Virus record (IMG/VR): IMGVR_UViG_3300036818_000028
Location: 1-45,313 of that record
From: a virus
DNA length: 45,313 nt
Strand: one strand, 5' to 3'
The position numbers were made by a program, and so were the translations under genes. The notes under the pieces are model-generated. The model had not been told where the DNA came from. It searched no databases and saw only the letters and a list, made by a program, of their open reading frames with translations. Positions 15,750 through 45,313 of the stretch are shown piece after piece. Position 1 is the first letter of the stretch, and each line of letters opens with the position of its first letter.

Positions 15750-15939
15750 GTCTTTTGATGAGTTTTTAGACATAGTAGCTTTTAACTTAAGCCTTGACCG
15801 TGTTAACGGTGCATGGGTGCTACATAGTATTGAACCATTTGCTTTAGCTTATGCACTACAGAAACAAGTGTGGGCTTTAGAAGAGCGATTACAAAAACTA
15901 GAAAACAAAAAATCATCAACCAAAAAACAATCTAAATAA
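15736..15939 (+). CDS. Hypothetical protein, 67 aa
   Basis: Overlaps the previous gene by 14 nt and the next by one base. Helical; the C-terminal half (ALQKQVWALEERLQKLENKK) is a short coiled coil with a Lys-rich tail. Could be an oligomerisation adaptor. No family recognised. Confidence 0.6.
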   Translation: MKEVKSFDEFLDIVAFNLSLDRVNGAWVLHSIEPFALAYALQKQVWALEERLQKLENKKSSTKKQSK

Positions 15940-18296
15940 TGCAAGTAGCTTGCTGTCTCATTGTAAAAGGGACACCTGATGAGGCTCCTCTATTAGCTAA
16001 TGCATTAGCCTCTATTAATGGTTATGTAGACTATATAGTTGTACAAGCAAATTCGCCAAAAGACAAAGAGATATCTAAAGAAGTAAAGGAAGTTGCTTCC
16101 CAATATGCTGATGTTTACTACGAGTATGAGTGGGAAGGTAATTATGTAAAGGCTAGAGAAGATTGCTTCTCTATGGCTCCTCAAGAAGCTGATTGGTTAC
16201 TCTTTTTAGATTCAGACGATACAGTAGATGTACCAGAAATGATTAAACCATCTTTAGAGATAATGCCTAAAGATGTAGGAGGGGTATATATATCATATGA
16301 CTACGACCATGACGATTTTGGCAATGTCACTATTAATCTTTGGAGCTGTCGTGTTGTACGCAACAATGGTACATTTCATTGGAAAAGCAGTTTTGATGAC
16401 GATGAAATTTCTGTCCATGAAACGTTAGTAGCTAAAACAAGTTCCAGAAGTGTCAGTAATAATGAATGGGCAATTATACATCACGCTGATAAAAACCGCA
16501 GAGAAGTCTCATTAGAAAGAAATGTAGAACTTCTAGAAGGAATGTATAAGAAACATTCTGAGAAGGGGGATGTAGACCCTAGAATACTCTATTACTTAGC
16601 TACTCACTACTATGACCAGTTTAGGTTCAATGAATGCAAGCAATTGTTGTATGAATATCTACAATTATCTGGTTGGTCAGAAGAACGTAGTGAAGCCCAT
16701 GTGTATATGGGTAAGATTCTTTTAATGGAAAAGAAATATCAGCAAGCTAGAATAGCCTTCCTTATGGCTATAGGAGAATATTCTAAGAATGCTAACTCTT
16801 ATTTAGAACTAGCAGAATTAGAATTAAGAGAAAATCGTTATCAGCAAGCCTACGATTGGTTAATAACTTCAGCAGAAATTAAGCAAGATATAACACCTAT
16901 GGTTAAGTTTAATAATACTTACTTGGTGTATTCTTTGTTGTGCCAAACATTAATGAATATTGGTGGTAAGAAGCTTAATGAGGCTAGAGAATGGGCAGTT
17001 AAAGCTTTGAAGCTTAGACCGTATGACCCTAACGCACAAGCATTAAGAGACCAGATAGACCAGCTTATTGATTATAGAGATAACATGAAAGCTGCTAACA
17101 GGATAATAAGAAAGCTAGAACAGGATAAAGATGAAGAAAATATATTACCGCTTATTAAACATTTACCGAAAGATTTACAAGATACTGTCCCAGTTGTAGA
17201 CGCAAGGAATAGATATACAGAGCCTAAAGTTTGGCCATATAAATCTATAGCTATATATTGTGGTTCTGGAGCATTAGGTATATGGGGACCTCATACTATG
17301 GACACTAAGGGTATGGGGGGTAGTGAAGAGGCAGTTATTAGGCTTAGTAGAGAACTAGACAAGTTAGGGTGGAAAGTTACTGTGTATGCTACACCAGGAG
17401 AATCTGCTGGGTTTGACGGTGGAGTAGAGTGGAAACAGTACTGGGAATTTAATCCTAAAGATGAGTTCGATATCCTCATAGGATGGAGAAGTCCTTGGTT
17501 CTATGATGCAGAGTTTACAGCCCGTAAGAAATACTTATGGATGCATGATTTAACGCCACAAGAAGAGTTCACTACCAATAGAGTTAATAATTTTGATAAG
17601 GCTATATTTGTGAGCCAATATCATGCTAATGAATACAAAGATGTAATACCAAACCAAAAACGTTTCGCCTCGTCTAACGGTATAAACTCGGATGAATTTG
17701 ATAAGTATGATGGTAAGTTTAAACGCAATCCTTACCGATGCATCTATATGAGCGCTAACGAACGTGGTCTTAGGATATTATATGACATATGGGAAGATGT
17801 TAAGAAAGAAGTCCCTGAAGCTATACTAGATATTTATTATGGTTGGGAAAGTTTTGACTCTGTTAATAGAGATAATCCTGAGCGTATGATGTGGAAAGCT
17901 CAAATGATAGACAAAGCTTCTAAACTAGATGGTGTTACGGAACATGGCAGAATAGGGCAAGATAAACTCGTACAAGAGATATTTAAATCTGGTATATGGG
18001 CTTACCCTACTTTCTTTCCAGAAGTGAATTGTATTACTTGTCAGAAAGCAATGGCTGCAGGAGCTATACCAGTAACAAGTGATTTTGCAGTTCTTAAAGA
18101 TATTATAGCTTACGGTGAACAAATACCTATGAATAAATTTGAGCAACAAGATATTGACTTGTATAAAAGCAAGCTTATTAGTTGGTTAAAATCTCCTAAA
18201 CGTCAAGAAAATATTAGAGAAGAAATGGCTATGTGGGCGAGAACACACTTTGATTGGTCTAACACAGCGAATCAATGGGCAGAGGAAATGTCATGA
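15939..18296 (+). CDS. Multidomain glycosyltransferase: GT2-like, TPR, GT4-like, 785 aa
   Basis: Residues 1-200 are a GT-A fold: CCLIVKGTPDEAPLLANAL, then LLFLDSDDTVDVPEM with the DSDD metal/sugar-nucleotide motif. Residues 205-370 contain helical TPR-like repeats (HVYMGKILLMEKKYQQARIA; SYLELAELELRENRYQQAYD). Residues 425-785 are a GT-B, GT4-like domain: GMGGSEEAVIRLSRELDKLG, SNGINSDEF, then HGRIGQDKLVQEI and the donor-site region FPEVNCITCQKAMAAGAIP. Both transferase domains keep their key motifs. First of three consecutive glycosyltransferase genes; the target sugar and acceptor are unknown. Confidence 0.88.
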   Translation: MQVACCLIVKGTPDEAPLLANALASINGYVDYIVVQANSPKDKEISKEVKEVASQYADVYYEYEWEGNYVKAREDCFSMAPQEADWLLFLDSDDTVDVPEMIKPSLEIMPKDVGGVYISYDYDHDDFGNVTINLWSCRVVRNNGTFHWKSSFDDDEISVHETLVAKTSSRSVSNNEWAIIHHADKNRREVSLERNVELLEGMYKKHSEKGDVDPRILYYLATHYYDQFRFNECKQLLYEYLQLSGWSEERSEAHVYMGKILLMEKKYQQARIAFLMAIGEYSKNANSYLELAELELRENRYQQAYDWLITSAEIKQDITPMVKFNNTYLVYSLLCQTLMNIGGKKLNEAREWAVKALKLRPYDPNAQALRDQIDQLIDYRDNMKAANRIIRKLEQDKDEENILPLIKHLPKDLQDTVPVVDARNRYTEPKVWPYKSIAIYCGSGALGIWGPHTMDTKGMGGSEEAVIRLSRELDKLGWKVTVYATPGESAGFDGGVEWKQYWEFNPKDEFDILIGWRSPWFYDAEFTARKKYLWMHDLTPQEEFTTNRVNNFDKAIFVSQYHANEYKDVIPNQKRFASSNGINSDEFDKYDGKFKRNPYRCIYMSANERGLRILYDIWEDVKKEVPEAILDIYYGWESFDSVNRDNPERMMWKAQMIDKASKLDGVTEHGRIGQDKLVQEIFKSGIWAYPTFFPEVNCITCQKAMAAGAIPVTSDFAVLKDIIAYGEQIPMNKFEQQDIDLYKSKLISWLKSPKRQENIREEMAMWARTHFDWSNTANQWAEEMS

Positions 18297-19282
18297 AAAA
18301 ACTAAAAATAGCCTTCGTGTGGGACTGGAATCCTCCTATTGAGCAAATAATAACGTGGAAAGATGGTCTAGCTGCTGCATTAGCAGAACTAGAAAACCGT
18401 GGGCACATAGTAGAGTTATTTACTGGAGGAGAGAGATACAATGAATTAATAGACCATCCATATTTCCCAATTATTCAGACTAAGGGCATATCTACCCAAA
18501 TAGCAGACATGCAAACTAAGGTAAGGTTTGGGCCAGATACATTTAGGGCAGATATAATTCTTTACTGGGGAGATATGACACGTCCTAATGCTAAACCATT
18601 GAGACAACTTGGCATACCTATGGCTATATGTTTTGCTGGTGGAAACCCATTCGGAGAAAATGTAGATTTATTTGACCATATATTTGTAGAGAGTGATATA
18701 TATTTACAGCAATTTCTAGCTAAGGATTATACAAGTGTATCTGTAGCCTTTGGTACTAATACAGATTTATTTGTTCCTGTACCACAGCAACCAAAGATAT
18801 TTGATGTTGTATTTCCTGCAACATTTGCTGCATGGAAAAGACACCAGCTTTTAGCTGACGCTACTAAAGACTTAAAGTCATTAGCTGTAGGTTGGATGTA
18901 TAATGACCATGAGACAGAATGTTGGCAAGAGTGCTTAGACAAAGGTACGATGGTTCTACCGCACGTGTCTGCTGATGCTTTACGATATTTATATGCAGCT
19001 TCTAAAGTATGTGTGATACCTTCACGTTCTGATGGCGGCTCACAGAGAACTGTGTTAGAAGCTATGGCAATGGATATCCCCGTAGTTGTGACTGACAGTG
19101 ATAAGTTTGATTTTGCAGAAGGAAAGATTTATGAAGCAGAACCAAACGCAAAAGATTTAAAGGCTATGATAAATATGGCGTTAGAAGCAGAAGTTGATAC
19201 TAGAGACTATGTAGTAGAAAACTGGAGCCATAAGACATATGCAGATTCATTAGAGAAGGAGTTATTAAAATTATGCGAGTAA
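18293..19282 (+). CDS. GT4-family glycosyltransferase, 329 aa
   Basis: Single-domain GT-B enzyme. N-terminal KIAFVWDWNPP and LENRGHIVELFTGG form the acceptor half. C-terminal VVFPATFAAWKRHQLLADAT, then VIPSRSDGGSQRTVLEAMAM is the nucleotide-sugar site (E-x-[AM]-A pattern). Start chosen at 18293, whose ATGA overlaps the previous stop and has AGAGGAAA upstream; an ATG at 18275 lies inside that site. Coupled to both neighbours. Confidence 0.85.
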   Translation: MKKLKIAFVWDWNPPIEQIITWKDGLAAALAELENRGHIVELFTGGERYNELIDHPYFPIIQTKGISTQIADMQTKVRFGPDTFRADIILYWGDMTRPNAKPLRQLGIPMAICFAGGNPFGENVDLFDHIFVESDIYLQQFLAKDYTSVSVAFGTNTDLFVPVPQQPKIFDVVFPATFAAWKRHQLLADATKDLKSLAVGWMYNDHETECWQECLDKGTMVLPHVSADALRYLYAASKVCVIPSRSDGGSQRTVLEAMAMDIPVVVTDSDKFDFAEGKIYEAEPNAKDLKAMINMALEAEVDTRDYVVENWSHKTYADSLEKELLKLCE

Positions 19283-37648: not shown

Positions 37649-37735
37649 TTATTTAATGTTTTGTAAGCTATCTTTTATGCTTCTTAATAAATTAATTACT
37701 GTATCTAGTTTAGCTACTACTTTGTCATCATTCAT
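37649..37735 (-). CDS. 28-aa helical ORF
   Basis: ATG overlaps the stop of the RecB-like gene and has GAGG upstream. MNDDKVVAKLDTVINLLRSI, ending KDSLQNIK: an amphipathic helix. Coupling and ribosome site support it. Confidence 0.45.
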   Translation of the reverse strand: MNDDKVVAKLDTVINLLRSIKDSLQNIK

Positions 37736-38466
37736 AATGCCTCGCAACATTCTTTATTAATTATTTTTCCGGTCTTACTCTTGTATCTGCTTTCAGGTAC
37801 GCCGTAACAACAGTAACCTACTTTCCAGTCCTTACACTCGCAATCCGGCGAAATGTTATTTTCTAAACAATGGTTCATATATTTACATCTATCAGTCACT
37901 TCTGTCACGATATCAGGAGTTAATTGAACTGTTGTAATTTTTCCTACATATCCATCATTCTTAGATATATAAGCTAGTTTAGCCTCTTTGACATCGTAGC
38001 CATTTAGATTAGCAAGGATGATATAACATGCCTGTTGAATTATATAGTCGTGTTCTTCTTTTAATTCATCATATTTACCACTTCTGATTTGGTTCTGTAT
38101 ATACCAAAACCATTTACTATTTTGGGTTTTGGAATCCCATATTTCCCACTGGTCGTTGTTCTTTACTAGGAAATCACATGTACCACCTAGATTTAAACCA
38201 GAGTCGTAAAATGGTACCTGTATTTGATAATCAGTACCACTCCATTCTAAAGCGTTTTCCCATAGTTTTTCCCACAAGAAGCCTACCTGAAAGTTTAATA
38301 ATGCTTTAGCACTAGGGGGAGTAGTTTGTTTAACACCTTTAATTTTATAATAATGTACTCTAGGACAACCGCCAAGAGATGACGGCGAAAGGTGTTTATA
38401 TTGCTTTGGGGGTAAATTAGATACCCATTCCTCTAATAACGTTGTGATCTGTAGTCCATCTGACAT
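37732..38466 (-). CDS. Cas4/RecB-like PD-(D/E)XK nuclease, 244 aa
   Basis: Exonuclease fold: HLSPSSLGGCPRVHYYKIKG (first helix with the first Cys), LNLGGTCDFLV (motif II, G-x-x-D), QWEIWDSKT (motif III, E-x-K variant: D-S-K), then IIQQACYIILANLNGY (motif QxxxY). Cysteines at GGCPR and at CECKDWKVGYCC near the C-terminus match the spacing used for the 4Fe-4S cluster of Cas4/AddB enzymes. No cas genes or CRISPR array are present, so a replication/recombination role is likely. Predicted leaderless. Confidence 0.8.
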   Translation of the reverse strand: MSDGLQITTLLEEWVSNLPPKQYKHLSPSSLGGCPRVHYYKIKGVKQTTPPSAKALLNFQVGFLWEKLWENALEWSGTDYQIQVPFYDSGLNLGGTCDFLVKNNDQWEIWDSKTQNSKWFWYIQNQIRSGKYDELKEEHDYIIQQACYIILANLNGYDVKEAKLAYISKNDGYVGKITTVQLTPDIVTEVTDRCKYMNHCLENNISPDCECKDWKVGYCCYGVPESRYKSKTGKIINKECCEAL

Positions 38467-39021: not shown

Positions 39022-39528
39022 TTATCCTTGGTGTGCATCAGCTTGTTCTATAGTCTGTTCTTGTGGCTTGTCTACTTTCCAGTTACCGTATTCTTCTGAT
39101 TCTTCAAATTGATAGGCTACTTGGTTAGAATTATGATACTGTAGTTTTCTATTCTGTTGTTTAGAAAACTTTTTAAACAGTGTGTCGATCTTAGAACCCT
39201 TTAAATTTTCGTCTAACTGTATATAATCTTCAAATACTTCTGCTATTACATGGGAATCTATGATGCTTAATATGCCAACACACTCGCAATCAGTATGTCG
39301 TATCAAGCTTATATAATCATATGACATGCCATACTCTAATGTATATTTTAAACTTTTAAATATACGTTTATCTCTTACCGTTTCTCTATCTTTTTGCATT
39401 TTTGTTAATTGTGCATTTGTTTTTGTAATTTCGGGTGTGGAGGCAGCACGGTTTATAAACGCATCCATTTGGTCTGATATAACGGATGTGAGTGTAGCCC
39501 CGTTGTATTCTGGTGTACCTAAAGGCAT
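39022..39528 (-). CDS. Hypothetical protein of amidoligase operon, 168 aa
   Basis: MPLGTPEYNGATLTSVISDQ, a charged helix, then TLEYGMSYDYISLIRHTDCE and EDYIQLDENLKGSKIDTLFK; polar Gln/Glu tail. AGGAAAATAAT upstream of ATG. Last gene of the operon with the amidoligase and amidotransferase. No family recognised; co-transcription suggests a substrate or accessory factor. Confidence 0.6.
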   Translation of the reverse strand: MPLGTPEYNGATLTSVISDQMDAFINRAASTPEITKTNAQLTKMQKDRETVRDKRIFKSLKYTLEYGMSYDYISLIRHTDCECVGILSIIDSHVIAEVFEDYIQLDENLKGSKIDTLFKKFSKQQNRKLQYHNSNQVAYQFEESEEYGNWKVDKPQEQTIEQADAHQG

Positions 39529-39529
39529 A

Positions 39530-40138
39530 TTATTTTCCTAATCTAGACACATAGTTTATTTTAATAAACGGTCTAGTTTCTCTTAATGCGTTTTCTAATA
39601 TATTTTGATATATCTTTAAATATCCGAACTGTTTTCTTATAGCTATAGATTTATGCGGTCTGAATGTTAGTAATGCTATTTTCTTGTTTTCATATAATAT
39701 ATAACATTTCATGTTATGGTTATCATAATCACGTTCATAGTTAAATCTACCGTGTGCGCCACCGATATATTGATTACTAAATTTACCTGTACCGCCATAT
39801 TGATATGGGTCTATATCTTCAAATATGCGCAACAATAGATTAAGCATATGTTCTTTTTCTTGTTTAAGCTTCGGTTTTTGTGGCATTTGATTGTTAACCT
39901 CGTTATTATCTGCTAATCTTAAATCTATTGATCTGTACCTGTTTGTGTACATATTAGGGTTATTCAGGTTAAAAGATATTTCATATATATACTCGTCCAC
40001 TTCGGTCTCATCATAATCTATTAGCGCTACAACTATTGCTATTCCTCTATCGCCTGTAATAGACGCTATTTGTTCTGGATAATAGTCACTATCCTCTCTT
40101 AATCTAACCCTATCACCTATATTAAAACTTGGTTCCAT
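39530..40138 (-). CDS. SH3/KOW-like two-domain protein of amidoligase operon, 202 aa
   Basis: Residues 1-75 look like a small beta-barrel (FNIGDRVRLREDSDYYPEQI, SITGDRGIAIVVALIDYDET) as in KOW/SH3-like phage proteins. Residues 95-200 form an alpha/beta domain (YGGTGKFSNQYIGGAHGRFN, KKIALLTFRPHKSIAIRKQF). Lies 4 bp after the amidotransferase gene. Function unknown; placement suggests a partner of the amide-forming enzymes. Confidence 0.6.
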   Translation of the reverse strand: MEPSFNIGDRVRLREDSDYYPEQIASITGDRGIAIVVALIDYDETEVDEYIYEISFNLNNPNMYTNRYRSIDLRLADNNEVNNQMPQKPKLKQEKEHMLNLLLRIFEDIDPYQYGGTGKFSNQYIGGAHGRFNYERDYDNHNMKCYILYENKKIALLTFRPHKSIAIRKQFGYLKIYQNILENALRETRPFIKINYVSRLGK

Positions 40139-40142
40139 TATT

Positions 40143-41300
40143 TTATGCCCCTATTAAATGTGTTTTCATTTGATGTGATTGATTTAAAACATTATTTAGT
40201 TTGTCTTTAAAGCTTTTATTTTGTGTTTCTGTTTCTGTCCATTCAGGTGCCATTAACAAGCAATATTCGACGCCTTGTAATATTTCTAATTTATCTTGTG
40301 TATGCCATGAGGCAGTTTCTTCTTCTAGCTTTGTAATTTCTTCTTGTACCATTCCAAAAGCTATTGCATATAACCCGTCGGCGTATTCCATGTACTCATT
40401 AAATGTTTCTTTAATTTTGTTTCTAGTCCGCACTATTTCCGTATGGCTTATCCAATCTAATTCATCATCTTCTAAACTTAATATTTCGCTGACATTCTTA
40501 GCTGTTTCTTGTTTTGTGTAGCTTTCAACTGGTGTATAAGTATAGTTAGTATTGTTATAATTAACACCACTATGGCTACTCTGGTATTGTGGTATTTCAA
40601 AATTCTTTATATTTAATATTTTGTCTAAATGGTTATAAGTAAATAGTTTATCTGATTCTATTAGAACAGCTTTGCTGCTTTTAGATTCGCTGGATATAGT
40701 TATTTTATTATGAAGGTTCTTGTAATATAATGGGTTAGAATTTCTACCAAAATATATCTTATCGTTTTTATTCTTACCATATATATTTTTTGCGTTACGT
40801 TCCATAGCTAAGCATATAAATGCTATACTGCCCTGTACTTTTAATTCTTTTTGTTTCTTTTCCATAGTAAGCGCAAAATCCCACAATAACGCTTCACTGT
40901 CATTAAATCTGTTGTCATCTTGTAATGAAGTGTATTTGATACCTAATTTTTTATGTTCTTCATACAGTGATTTAGCTTTCCAGTGTGTAATTATCCCGTT
41001 ATGGATAAGAACATATGTGGTTTTCTTGAAATAATCGCCGGTACTAAATGGGTGACAAGCGTTCTTAACATTGCTTGTACTAGTGGGCATACGATGATGA
41101 AATAATATTTCATATGATGGATGTTTTTGTATGTATTTGATTATTTTTTCTTCTTTAGGTTCTTTTATTAAATTCCCAAAGACTGTATCAAATAATCCAA
41201 AACCTTCATGCCCTCGTGTTCTTTGTTGTTTGTATTGTTTTAAAACTCTTTTATTAACTGGTTTACCATTAAAATCTTTGCTATAAATTAAACCACAAAT
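40143..41300 (-). CDS. Class II glutamine amidotransferase, 385 aa, ATT start
   Basis: Hydrolyses glutamine to ammonia with an N-terminal Cys nucleophile. From ATT at 41300: [M]CGLIYSKDFNGKPVNKR, then RGHEGFGLFD, ILFHHRMPTSTSNVKNACHP (R site), THWKAKS preceded by VLIHNGII (oxyanion N-G), and NRFNDSEALLWDFAL (D-S-E, glutamine binding). All N-terminal nucleophile residues are present. An ORF search from the first ATG (41090) loses 70 residues including the nucleophile. There is no in-frame ATG, GTG or TTG between the upstream stop TAA and the Cys codon; AGAGAGG lies 8 nt before ATT. C-terminal 200 residues are unassigned. Lies 17 nt after the amidoligase gene. Confidence 0.88.
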   Translation of the reverse strand: MCGLIYSKDFNGKPVNKRVLKQYKQQRTRGHEGFGLFDTVFGNLIKEPKEEKIIKYIQKHPSYEILFHHRMPTSTSNVKNACHPFSTGDYFKKTTYVLIHNGIITHWKAKSLYEEHKKLGIKYTSLQDDNRFNDSEALLWDFALTMEKKQKELKVQGSIAFICLAMERNAKNIYGKNKNDKIYFGRNSNPLYYKNLHNKITISSESKSSKAVLIESDKLFTYNHLDKILNIKNFEIPQYQSSHSGVNYNNTNYTYTPVESYTKQETAKNVSEILSLEDDELDWISHTEIVRTRNKIKETFNEYMEYADGLYAIAFGMVQEEITKLEEETASWHTQDKLEILQGVEYCLLMAPEWTETETQNKSFKDKLNNVLNQSHQMKTHLIGA

Positions 41301-41317
41301 ATTTCTATCCTCTCTTT

Positions 41318-42340
41318 CTATACTGTAATTACAGTATTATCACATGCTCTTTCAGCGTAACGTTCTTTGCGTTGTTCTACGTACTTTTCTTTTGAACAAT
41401 CTTTATTTATAAGCCTGTCGTAGTCTTTAGAATATCTGTTTTCTAGCATCTTATCTTGTATTATCAATTTGTTATTATCTATTTTAAAGCTACGTTCTTT
41501 TTTTAACTCATCAAAAGTTTTGTACGATGGTTTCAAATAATTTACAGTCTTCTCTAATGCTTCTAAATGTTTACTAGTAAAGAAAAACTTTTGTAATCCC
41601 CACCCTTGCTTAAATTTAATTTTTCCTACTGTATTAAAGAAATCAAATTTTACTGGTTTAGCTTTATAGAACTTTAAAGTATTAGCAATAACACATATGA
41701 AATCTATTAAAGCTTCTGGTTTTTCGTAGCATGTTTCAAACACTCTATATTCAAATACATTATGTGAACCTGATATACAACTATATTTACTACCTAATGT
41801 AATTTTAGGTACTCTATAATTCAATGCCCTAGAATTGTGTGAACAACTAGACAAGAAGTATAAGGCAGGTAAAAAATGGTTCATTGTAGTAGCGAAGTTT
41901 AAAGCATGAGCAGATGATAATTGATTGCCTCCAGGATAATTACCATCCTCTGAGTTTAGTATCGCTATATGCATACCGGCACCGCGTACATCTAACCCGT
42001 TACCTATCTTTTCAGCTAATAACTTAAATGCTTTTATATATTCAATACCGTAGTGAGCTAACATAATAGGTAAAGTGAAAGTAAATTCGCTGTCTACTGA
42101 CCCATCTCTATAAAATTTGCTGTATACTAAAGCATTTTTAGCTTCTTTAGAAACATGGCTTTTTAAAAACCTAGAGCATCTATCGTTTGTCCAGCTAGTA
42201 GAAACACCAATCGAATAATCATCGTAATTTCTGTTTAATTGACCTTCTAATTCTAGCTTTATATATTTTCCTTTATATGGACAACTCCTTATATAATTTA
42301 ATGCTTTTTTTAAAGCTTTAGCTTGACTCTCTTTATTCAT
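41318..42340 (-). CDS. Phage amidoligase (GS-like COOH-NH2 ligase), 340 aa
   Basis: Glutamine-synthetase-like ATP-dependent carboxylate-amine ligase. Near residue 85 VDSEFTFTL is the acidic metal strand; GAGMHIAIL (about 121-129) matches the G-x-H-x-H-type strand; HNVFEYRVFETCYEKPEALI (about 194-213) carries the E-x-R core. This pattern fits the phiEco32-type phage COOH-NH2 ligase/putative amidoligase families of Iyer and colleagues. TAGGAG precedes ATG. First gene of a four-gene minus-strand operon with the glutamine amidotransferase. Substrate unknown: peptide, cell-wall and nucleotide amidation are possible. Confidence 0.75.
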   Translation of the reverse strand: MNKESQAKALKKALNYIRSCPYKGKYIKLELEGQLNRNYDDYSIGVSTSWTNDRCSRFLKSHVSKEAKNALVYSKFYRDGSVDSEFTFTLPIMLAHYGIEYIKAFKLLAEKIGNGLDVRGAGMHIAILNSEDGNYPGGNQLSSAHALNFATTMNHFLPALYFLSSCSHNSRALNYRVPKITLGSKYSCISGSHNVFEYRVFETCYEKPEALIDFICVIANTLKFYKAKPVKFDFFNTVGKIKFKQGWGLQKFFFTSKHLEALEKTVNYLKPSYKTFDELKKERSFKIDNNKLIIQDKMLENRYSKDYDRLINKDCSKEKYVEQRKERYAERACDNTVITV

Positions 42341-42350
42341 AAAATAAAAC
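42323..42350 (+). promoter_or_regulatory. Candidate promoter for plus-strand small RNA
   Basis: TTGACT (42323-42328), 16-bp spacer, TAAAAC (42345-42350). Expected start about 42357-42359, at the GGG that opens the 11-bp closing helix. It lies inside the 5-prime end of the amidoligase gene on the opposite strand. Confidence 0.4.
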
Positions 42351-42358
42351 TCCTAGAA

Positions 42359-42518
42359 GGGATAGCAAGTAACGCTAGTGCGAAATCTACAGAGGCAAGA
42401 TTCATGTGTAGAGTCCTATATTTCAGATGAAGCAGAGCTGATTTACCTGCTTGCTATCCCTAATTCGCTGCTACAGTCACAATGACACCTAAAATACTAT
42501 TAGGCTACAGCTTTTTTT
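42359..42518 (+). ncRNA. Candidate multi-branched small RNA ending in terminator
   Basis: Closing helix GGGATAGCAAG (42359-42369) with CTTGCTATCCC (42450-42460), 11 perfect pairs. Inside: CGC/GCG (42373-42375 with 42380-42382), CTACA/TGTAG (42387-42391 with 42407-42411), TCAG/CTGA (42423-42426 with 42438-42441). Downstream, GCTG/CAGC with CCTAA/TTAGG (42467-42511) followed by seven T (42512-42518) looks like an intrinsic terminator on the plus strand. On the minus strand the same helix lies 18 nt before the amidoligase ATG and could be a leader element. No known family matched. Confidence 0.5.
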
Positions 42519-42553
42519 AGCGCTTGCGCTTGTAAAAACGCTAACGCATTTTT

Positions 42554-42581
42554 ATTGTAACACTTTGTTTTTGGATAACAA
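42554..42581 (-). promoter_or_regulatory. Candidate promoter of amidoligase operon
   Basis: TTGTTA (42581-42576), 16-bp spacer, TACAAT (42559-42554). Would give a leader of about 205 nt that contains the complement of the 42359-42518 element. Confidence 0.45.
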
Positions 42582-42645
42582 TTTTACTTTAATATATTAC
42601 GCCATAACATATTTAAGTAGTGTTACTTTTCCTCTTTTAATATTG

Positions 42646-43036
42646 AAGTGACAGAGTAGTATCAGTACCCATAAGTCACTTAGACTCATAGTATTAACCT
42701 AACTATAAATCTCTCAAGTAATACATTAACGCATGTATCACTACTACCACAATCCCGAGTGGTATATAAAGGTTTATCCCGTCAGAATAAACAAAAGTGT
42801 TTTATACTATTAAATAGCGCAAACGGTGGGTGTCTTACCGACCTTATAATATATATGCTATTAATTTAATAGTGTAACTCTATTGTATAGCCAGTACTAG
42901 CAACAATATCATTCGCTTGAGTCTGTGGTTAAAACCAAACATTTCAGACAGGGACTTGCAACCCTTGAAATTATGACTCTCAAGTTACCAGCTCTTTGAG
43001 TAACTACCATTTAGATGTAGTCTCTATCGTTGCTAG
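42646..43036. ncRNA. Candidate large ornate structured RNA (strand unknown)
   Basis: Successive perfect pairings: 42646-42652/42675-42681; 42721-42726/42733-42738; 42745-42750/42759-42764; 42772-42777/42787-42792; 42806-42818 with 42857-42861 and 42866-42873 (13 pairs, one bulge) around 42824-42827/42837-42840; 42897-42904/43029-43036 (8 bp) enclosing 42916-42921/42979-42984, 42942-42953/42962-42970, 42983-42988/43000-43005 and 43003-43007/43017-43021. Such density in 390 nt with no ORF recalls the large phage RNAs (GOLLD, ROOL), but I cannot match either. Confidence 0.45.
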
Positions 43037-43095
43037 AAACAGCTATACAAAGTTAAAGTGTAAAGCAGGTTTAACATTGCTATAAGGGTTTGTAA

Positions 43096-43124
43096 TTGAC
43101 TTCTGCCCTTAGCTATGCTATACT
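43096..43124 (+). promoter_or_regulatory. Promoter of peptide/ATP-grasp/HAD operon
   Basis: TTGACT (43096-43101), 17-bp spacer, TATACT (43119-43124). Unlike the other promoters with this sequence it has a leader of about 150 nt, containing GATTG-TTATAT-CAATC and GGTTAC/GTGACC hairpins. Confidence 0.7.
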
Positions 43125-43281
43125 GCTTATAAATTGATTGTTATATCAATCTGTACTTTAAGGTTTAAGTTACTGGTTACAACCGTTTCGCCTCGTTTGT
43201 GACCATGAACAAATACTATCAAACAAACAATAAATTGTCAATCTTGTTTTACAGATAAAACATTATATAGTAAGGAGTGTT

Positions 43282-43437
43282 ATGGGTCAAGAACAGGTGC
43301 AAAAGCATGAACAAAAAAGAAAAAAGCAAGAAGAAATAGTAGAAGATATAGGCGAAATAGCATTAGAGAATGAAGTATCTGAAGAAGCGGAACAAACAAT
43401 AATACATATAAATGAGGTATTAGATGATACTTTGTAA
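43282..43437 (+). CDS. 51-aa charged peptide coupled to ATP-grasp ligase
   Basis: TAAGGAGTGTT gives a near-ideal Shine-Dalgarno. Product MGQEQVQKHEQKRKKQEEIV, EDIGEIALENEVSEEAEQTI, IHINEVLDDTL: basic first third, acidic remainder, helical and without hydrophobic core. The last 14 bases overlap the ATP-grasp start, so translation is coupled. It may be a substrate or leader peptide for the ligase, as in ATP-grasp peptide modification systems; size, charge and the M-x-Q-E-Q start also recall Pup, but the C-terminal G-G-[EQ] of Pup is absent. Confidence 0.6.
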   Translation: MGQEQVQKHEQKRKKQEEIVEDIGEIALENEVSEEAEQTIIHINEVLDDTL

Positions 43438-44140
43438 CAAAAGAACTAAAAAAAGTGCGTATAAATTAAAACAAGGGTTAAAAAACAATGGCTACAAGGG
43501 TATATATATTAATTATGGAAATTCTTCTTTGCAATATTCTGGTGCTGTATATAATAAAGCGCAAGCGGTAAAACTTGCGGTAAATAAAAGATTAGCATTA
43601 AATGAATTTAGAAAAAATAATATTCCTACTCTATTACAAGATATTAACTATATTTTAGAGGGATTTGATTTTGAGGGCCAACTAGTAGGACGGCCAGATC
43701 ATCATACTAAAGGTAAGTATTTTTATATATGTAATAATCCTGATGAAGTAAATTACTATCGGAATTTAAAAAATAATCCCGCTACTCACTTTATGACTTT
43801 GTTAAAAGACTTTCAAGAGTTTAGAGTTCACGTAGTTAATAATAAATCTATTAAGATCAGTGAAAAAATAGGTAATGGTAAAACTAAGAACCATGCTAAC
43901 GGTGCGATCTTTGAATATCCACACAACTTTAATCATAAAAAGACATTAAGAAAACTAGCACGTAAAGCAGTTAAGTGTTTAGGTTTAGATTTTGGGGCAG
44001 TAGATATTATGTATAAAGATGGTAATTTTGCCCTGTTAGAAGTTAATACCGCACCATGTCTTACTGATGAAACATCAGATACATTAGCTTGTTATGTAAA
44101 GGCATTTATGGATTATGAAGAAAATACTGATAGCGTTTGA
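43424..44140 (+). CDS. ATP-grasp carboxylate-amine ligase, 238 aa
   Basis: Activates a carboxylate as acyl-phosphate for attack by an amine or other nucleophile. GKYFYICNNPDEVNYY preceded by LVGRPDHHTK is the ATP-lid/Lys region (about residues 85-110); LKDFQEFRVHVVNNKSIKIS contains the E-F-R-V central strand; CLGLDFGAVDIMYKDGNFAL and LLEVNTAPCLTDE supply the D and E-x-N metal ligands (about residues 185-217). Shorter than housekeeping ATP-grasp enzymes, as usual for phage members. Joined by overlap to the peptide gene before and the HAD gene after. Confidence 0.88.
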   Translation: MILCNKRTKKSAYKLKQGLKNNGYKGIYINYGNSSLQYSGAVYNKAQAVKLAVNKRLALNEFRKNNIPTLLQDINYILEGFDFEGQLVGRPDHHTKGKYFYICNNPDEVNYYRNLKNNPATHFMTLLKDFQEFRVHVVNNKSIKISEKIGNGKTKNHANGAIFEYPHNFNHKKTLRKLARKAVKCLGLDFGAVDIMYKDGNFALLEVNTAPCLTDETSDTLACYVKAFMDYEENTDSV

Positions 44141-44480
44141 TTGTGATGGCACCTTAGTTAATAATGGTGCTTTAGATGAGCATGAAATAGTAGCTAATGA
44201 AAGAATAAGACATCTGCTTATTATATTAGCTTCTTTTAAGAATACTAAAATACTTGTATGGAGTGGTGGCGGTGAATTGTGGGCTAGACAAGTTACAAAT
44301 AGTTTAGGGTTAAAAAAGTATGTTGATTCATACGCTGATAAAGAATATACAAAATGTCCTGATTGCAATAAGCCATGCAATCATCATGTATTTAATACTA
44401 AAATAAAGCCTGATATTGCTATAGATGATATACAAAGTTGTGAACTAGGCTTGATTAACTTGATAGTTAAAGAAAAGTAG
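44115..44480 (+). CDS. HAD-superfamily phosphatase with Cys/His insert, 121 aa
   Basis: ILIAFDCDGTLVNNGALDEH has motif I (D-x-D-G-T); ILVWSGGGELWARQV has motif II (Ser); IKPDIAIDDIQSC has motif III Lys and motif IV D-D. Between them CPDCNKPCNHHVF forms a compact Cys/His cluster that may bind zinc. Small, capless HAD, resembling phage nucleotidases or polynucleotide 3-prime phosphatases. Overlaps the ATP-grasp gene by 26 nt, so it is part of the same operon. Confidence 0.85.
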   Translation: MKKILIAFDCDGTLVNNGALDEHEIVANERIRHLLIILASFKNTKILVWSGGGELWARQVTNSLGLKKYVDSYADKEYTKCPDCNKPCNHHVFNTKIKPDIAIDDIQSCELGLINLIVKEK

Positions 44481-45133: not shown

Positions 45134-45313
45134 TGTTTTAACTCCTTTATATGATTAACTAACCATTTTTCTATCTTATTCCATGCTGCACTGTATGCTG
45201 CACTGTATGCTGCACTGTATGCACTGGTTGCTGCACTGTATGCTGCACTGTATGCACTGGTTGCTGCACTGTATGCTGCACTGTATGCACTGTATGCTGC
45301 ACTGTATGCACTG
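45124..45313 (-). CDS. C-terminal part of junction-spanning GLH-type protein
   Basis: Continuation of the gene starting at 627; positions 45187-45313 duplicate 1-127, so only 45124-45186 add new coding: one Ala codon, then W-N-K-I-E-K-W-L-V-N-H-I-K-E-L-K-Q-C-K and stop TAA at 45124-45126. The frame is continuous across the junction (627 is divisible by 3). Contains the Shine-Dalgarno of the 111-aa gene. Confidence 0.75.
   Translation of the reverse strand, partial: SAYSAAYSAYSAAYSAATSAYSAAYSAATSAYSAAYSAAYSAAWNKIEKWLVNHIKELKQCK
45187..45313. repeat. Right copy of 127-bp terminal overlap
   Basis: Identical to 1-127. The three bases before it (45184-45186) are still repeat; unique sequence begins at 45183. 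Confidence 0.9.

Follow-up and report, generated by a model that had tools for sequence, protein, structure and literature searches.

Many tailed phages carry amidoligase cassettes. The window analysed here is the stretch of 45,313 nt that spans positions 1 to 45,313 of the IMG/VR virus record IMGVR_UViG_3300036818_000028, and it contains two divergent operons that an initial annotation had read as an amide-bond system. The locus raises the question of which of its genes form such a cassette, and on what the cassette would act. The divergent layout around about 0.94 kb of non-coding sequence holds at the annotated coordinates: 42341-43281 carries no credible open reading frames and separates the amidoligase operon from the ATP-grasp operon. 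Open reading frames are present for the following genes, with the amidotransferase start revised as described below:

39022..39528, minus strand: operon partner u168 (168 aa)
39530..40138, minus strand: operon partner u202 (202 aa)
40143..41300, minus strand: class II (Ntn) glutamine amidotransferase (385 aa; ATT start at 41298-41300; predicted catalytic Cys2)
41318..42340, minus strand: GS-fold amidoligase (340 aa; predicted fold and invariant residues)
43282..43437, plus strand: gene for a 51-aa charged peptide, its stop overlapping the ATP-grasp start
43424..44140, plus strand: RimK-like ATP-grasp ligase (238 aa; Pfam, PHROG and PDB profile)
44115..44480, plus strand: HAD-like small protein with a DCDGT motif, overlapping the end of the ATP-grasp gene

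The three enzymes are genuine. As direct queries, the window amidoligase and amidotransferase had no match in INPHARED or IMG/VR, and relatives were reached through the ATP-grasp alignment. An AlphaFold2 model of the amidoligase from an eight-member alignment (pLDDT 84, pTM 0.87) had glutamine synthetases (GS) and gamma-glutamylmethylamide synthetases (GmaS) as its best 50 Foldseek matches in the PDB, and VIA-align aligned 250 residues with Z 13.9, with GS and GmaS types throughout the matches listed. The GS-like ligase call is thus borne out by the predicted fold. Residues E30, E32, D83, E85, H124, R171, R176, E197, and R199 are invariant in the eight-sequence alignment and were equated with GS residues by motif, not by superposition; the protein has the catalytic fold of the GS-like (COOH-NH2) amidoligase superfamily together with the acidic, His, and Arg residues conserved in its active site. 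Named amidoligases from phages tf and LAh_9 are among its viral matches. A DnaJ-like zinc-ribbon insert occurs in all seven amidoligase relatives and is missing from the window protein. Pfam Amidoligase_2 (PF12224) gave no match in the window, this being one of the searches without a positive-control match, and hhalign of the window profile against the known phage Amidoligase_2 profile gave no link (probability 4.6%). Because the sequence profiles do not link, kinship with phage Amidoligase_2 rests on fold and context.

The amidotransferase had been annotated from an ATG at 41090, but its frame is open further upstream and encodes ICGLIYSKDF...RGHEGFGL...HHRMPTST...CHPF...HNG. This segment contains the motifs CG.., RG, HHR, HPF, and HNG, by which it is the predicted N-terminal nucleophile region of class II amidotransferases. 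The stretch from the in-frame stop to the catalytic Cys contains no ATG, GTG, or TTG; an ATT at 41298-41300 encodes the residue just before this Cys, and GAGAGG lies upstream. In the structural model, which matches the GlmS glutaminase domain (1xff) with Z 23.9, residue 2 is aligned to GlmS Cys1. Because of this alignment and the lack of an alternative start codon, the true start is most simply the ATT at 41300, 210 bases upstream of 41090. The structure prediction proposed earlier as a check returned both the GS-like and the Ntn folds, and the N-terminal-nucleophile call stands for the fold and falls for the start. With an Ntn fold, a Cys that is N-terminal after Met removal, and HNG, the protein is, on its modelled structure, a class II glutamine amidotransferase and a predicted glutaminase. 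It carries a helical C-terminal extension, and PF13522 was detected in six of the seven members of the amidotransferase set.

ATT is a very rare start codon. Among 71 distinct amidotransferase genes anchored on the Cys, 65 start with ATG, three with TTG, two with ATT, and one with ATC, a count that leaves out one chance match with CTT. The ATT/ATC starts fall in three of the nine genes of the window's subfamily (the window, L018, and L098) and in 0/62 elsewhere; were starts random, the probability of all three cases lying in the subfamily would be about 0.0015 (84/57155). L129, which also starts with ATT, is a fourth case but only distantly related. Good Shine-Dalgarno-like sequences precede the ATT/ATC starts, and sequencing error is an unlikely source since the metagenomes are separate. 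The weak AUU start probably tunes amidotransferase expression, and the subfamily supplies the correct glutaminase start.

The ATP-grasp call also held, with Pfam scores above the curated cut-offs for both RimK (26.3; cut-off 21) and Dala_Dala_lig_C (27.3; cut-off 24), which identify the protein as a RimK-like ATP-grasp ligase. It matches phrog_2599 at 1.4e-28, and its profile finds RimK as the best solved structure in the PDB (2.5e-9). Against NCBIfam rimK_fam (TIGR00768) the E-value is 2.1e-9, with MptN and CofF as comparable matches, but the score of 37.2 lies below the cut-off of 143.4, and the protein is not assigned to that family. Because this cut-off was not reached, we infer glutamate as the donor rather than reading it from family membership.

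An amidotransferase profile found 37 viral loci, including the near-identical L114 and L115. In 31 of the 37, the gene just upstream of the amidotransferase is an amidoligase, and an ATP-grasp gene occurs anywhere in the contig in 16, so that more than half lack one. Therefore, the amidoligase-amidotransferase pair is taken as the core and the ATP-grasp ligase as an accessory. The closest relative, L012 (amidoligase 44%, amidotransferase 40%, ATP-grasp 52%), keeps the gene pairs, the divergent orientation, and a gap of about 1 kb without credible genes. A gamma-glutamyl cyclotransferase is present in four of eleven contigs checked and missing from the window; its presence in relatives points to gamma-glutamyl chemistry. 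The capsid relative L008/G001 shares structural genes with the window, but the amidoligase is unmatched there.

This survey agrees with the proposed co-occurrence of the enzymes, but that co-occurrence does not extend to their neighbours. The peptide and the two operon partners had been suggested as dedicated parts, and none of them co-occurs with the enzymes in relatives. For the 51-aa peptide, no homologue was found in Pfam, PHROGs, or tblastn of the loci, and L012 and other relatives have no counterpart upstream of the ATP-grasp gene. The u202 protein resembles the uncharacterised phage families phrog_11307/9469 in its N-terminal part and has no IMG/VR relative; homology with genes downstream of the amidotransferase in L012, L014, and L018 was considered and dropped after a leave-one-out HMM failed. 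No convincing relative of u168 was found in Pfam, PHROGs, or the loci, where tblastn matched neither it nor the peptide. The HAD phosphatase call retains its DCDGT motif, but the Pfam Hydrolase match (E 0.004) is below cut-off. As a cassette part the HAD gene is not upheld: its homologue in L014 (55% identical) lies 8 kb from the L014 ATP-grasp gene, and in L012 the gene past the ATP-grasp gene is a cyclotransferase, not HAD. Because none of the four recurs with the enzymes in relatives, the peptide, the HAD gene, u202, and u168 are not dedicated cassette parts by the evidence at hand. PADLOC gave no defence match.

The non-coding stretch had been described as an RNA-like core shared between the operons. 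It contains the following predicted features:

42358..43206, minus strand: predicted RNA, long, structured, and untranslated, that precedes the amidoligase gene (z -6.29)
43213..43241, minus strand: predicted sigma70 promoter (TTGACA-N17-TAGTAT, extended -10 TG), directed into the RNA and the amidoligase operon
43262-43290, minus strand: second predicted promoter (consensus scan, 11/12)
43096..43124, plus strand: candidate promoter of the ATP-grasp operon, TTGACT-N17-TATACT with extended -10 (consensus scan only)

Two minus promoter-like sites adjoin the ATP-grasp operon, and the number of promoter-like sites in the consensus scan was not above that in shuffles. The predicted transcript from the inner promoter to the amidoligase start folds 6.3 SD better than shuffles (n=20), and the best stretches in sliding windows have z of -3.3 to -4.4 on the minus strand versus -1.6 to +0.4 on the plus strand. 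The region is thus structured, but it is not a neutral core: because the structure is on the minus strand only, downstream of strong predicted promoters of that strand, it is assigned to the amidoligase operon, of which it looks like a leader or a separate RNA. In the predicted layout, a closed domain (about 43206-42473) is sealed by a helix in which the first ten transcript bases pair with bases 725-734 (probability 0.6-0.9), and it is followed by a 3' hairpin domain of 11 bp (42461-42358) adjoining the amidoligase Shine-Dalgarno sequence. Since a stable fold that lacks covariation support is evidence of moderate weight, the large structured RNA ahead of the amidoligase is graded a candidate; it probably tunes expression.

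The L012 gap is similarly structured (z -5.2), and neither the sequence nor the fold of the window and L012 RNAs aligned convincingly, with differing predicted closing helices. The motif AAAGAGYTGGTAACTTG, common to both RNAs, was dropped as a sign of homology, as its matches are at chance level: one in G001 is coding, and the 14 in IMG/VR, including L012, are about the chance expectation and mostly coding. We consider it possible, though doubtful, that an RNA of 0.73-0.85 kb from outside Rfam (a regulatory leader or a processed large RNA), made upstream of the amidoligase operon, and AUU/AUC starts that hold the subfamily's glutaminase to low, IF3-sensitive levels together form an undescribed joint control of the cassette.

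The analysis shows the folds with their catalytic residues, the pairing of the genes, and their order, while ammonia transfer, a glutamate donor, an acceptor, and a purpose are inferred. The class II amidotransferase would split glutamine and hand the ammonia to the GS-fold amidoligase, a feed made plausible by the strict adjacency of the genes. The amidoligase, translated just before the amidotransferase, would activate a carboxylate with ATP for amidation, and the RimK-like ligase would add an amino acid (glutamate is the likeliest) either to the acceptor that is amidated or to one beside it. A peptide of the host envelope, for instance a peptidoglycan stem, is the probable acceptor and would be altered early in infection. 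We lean towards this reading as a whole, an early-region amide-bond cassette that amidates and glutamylates probably a host envelope peptide; by analogy with the published hypothesis, an envelope peptide would be the most likely target. The two ligases need not share one acceptor, since over half of the loci found with the amidotransferase profile have no ATP-grasp gene.

The solved structures nearest to the ATP-grasp ligase are the RimK S6:glutamate ligases, and the R2K papers propose that other ATP-grasp ligases of phages act on proteins (PMC4431377). Glutamylation and amidation of a host protein, for instance a ribosomal protein or RNA polymerase subunit, in the manner of RimK on S6 and redirecting host functions, would fit these facts, yet RimK-like ligases also use small molecules (MptN and CofF match comparably) and the window neighbourhood names no protein target, which leaves this unlikely. 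Synthesis of a small peptide metabolite in free form, gamma-glutamyl or other, appears less probable again: the window lacks a transporter, a complete pathway, and the cyclotransferase, even though relatives carry the last and GmaS is among the best fold matches of the amidoligase. The peptide and the ATP-grasp ligase are likely translationally coupled, judging by the overlap, as would suit a peptide serving as ligase substrate or tag with the HAD protein and the two operon partners as further parts. However, HAD, u202, and u168 do not co-occur with the enzymes, the peptide is missing upstream of the ATP-grasp gene in L012 and other relatives, and it matches no tag family. A Pup-like tag was rejected, there being no Pup family match and a C-terminal Leu, not Gly-Gly-Glu/Gln. 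We regard this last alternative as very improbable.

Comparison with known systems places the favoured envelope-peptide cassette in context. GS and GmaS have the catalytic fold and the motifs ExE, GMH, R..R, and ExR in common with the window amidoligase; in contrast, the GS N-terminal domain is not aligned (the alignment starts at GS residue ~100), and the window ligase is paired with a separate glutaminase. The glutaminase domains of GlmS and PurF share the Ntn fold, Cys nucleophile, and HNG oxyanion motif with the window amidotransferase, which, unlike them, is stand-alone and has its own helical C-terminal extension. The candidate RNA resembles GOLLD and ROOL in being long, highly structured, and phage-associated, but it has no Rfam match above the gathering threshold (GOLLD and ROOL included), has no tRNA nearby, and immediately precedes a protein-coding gene, and no homologous family is demonstrated. 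Should it prove real, the large structured RNAs of phages would gain another member, one linked to a defined operon.

The podoviral cassette (phiEco32, LUZ24, PA11, tf, CW02, PSA-HP1, CVT22, LAh_9) combines an amidoligase, a class II amidotransferase, and a RimK-like ATP-grasp ligase in one early-type region, as does the window, and the kinship with phiEco32-type phages proposed earlier agrees in both gene set and fold. This cassette, with which Iyer 2009 is associated in the papers that cite it, has been published as peptidoglycan modification, with a proposed role against superinfection (PMC5498523, PMC10580990), a target that is missing from the initial annotation. In the literature examined, no substrate is established for cassettes of this kind. 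In the cultured podoviral phages it lies close to replication genes and has its genes all on one strand, among them a pair of amidoligases (COOH-NH2 ligase type 2 and Amidoligase_2) and a conserved gene of ~200 aa. The window instead has a single amidoligase of divergent sequence, with the ATP-grasp gene encoded on the other strand beyond 1 kb of predicted structured RNA; CNL and AL2 profiles detected no second amidoligase, and the profile of the ~200-aa gene had no match. Its product may differ from that of the larger cassette, the second amidoligase and the cyclotransferase being missing. The window set is therefore a divergent single-amidoligase variant of the podoviral amidoligase/amidotransferase/ATP-grasp ('peptidoglycan modification') cassette, not a standard member of its two-amidoligase form. 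What stands out in this variant, the rare AUU/AUC starts and the candidate large RNA, is worth a test, and one amidoligase with its glutaminase and an optional ATP-grasp ligase make up a reduced set that is easier to reconstitute.

Further relatives (L094, L098 and L093) also carry 0.5-0.6 kb free of credible ORFs 5' of the amidoligase gene, in each case preceded by a strong promoter-like site. Structure in these gaps is moderate (z about -2.3 against shuffled sequences, sense strand), and that of L093 scores better on the antisense than on the sense strand.

ORF-poor gaps ahead of the amidoligase
L094, 7430-8030
L098, 7480-8100
L093, 7180-7760

Elsewhere in the window, two glycosyltransferase-like genes (15939-19282) lie directly past the capsid genes and are kept in its capsid relative, L008/G001, at 52-58% identity. 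A Cas4-like PD-(D/E)XK nuclease gene (37732-38466; phrog_1706, 2.3e-13) shares the minus-strand gene block of the amidoligase and amidotransferase genes, and a small protein encoded at 44798-45133 matches Kyanoviridae Gp96 (PF23790) and phrog_554. One tandem array spans both window ends (1-193 and 45183-45313; units of 12/21/33 bases, TGCACTGTATGC), and the termini share 127 identical bases; the genome is probably circularly mapped, or else the assembly was broken in this repeat.

An ATT/ATC start immediately 5' of the catalytic Cys codon recurs in class II amidotransferases.

Amidotransferases with ATT/ATC starts
window, 40143-41300, minus strand
L018, 7198
L098, 10001
L129 (distant relative), 10001

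The GS-fold amidoligases of L012 (the closest relative), L014, L015, L018 and L096-L098 contain a DnaJ/BSD2-like zinc-ribbon insert (CxxCxGxG) in their N-terminal third, whereas the window amidoligase lacks it.
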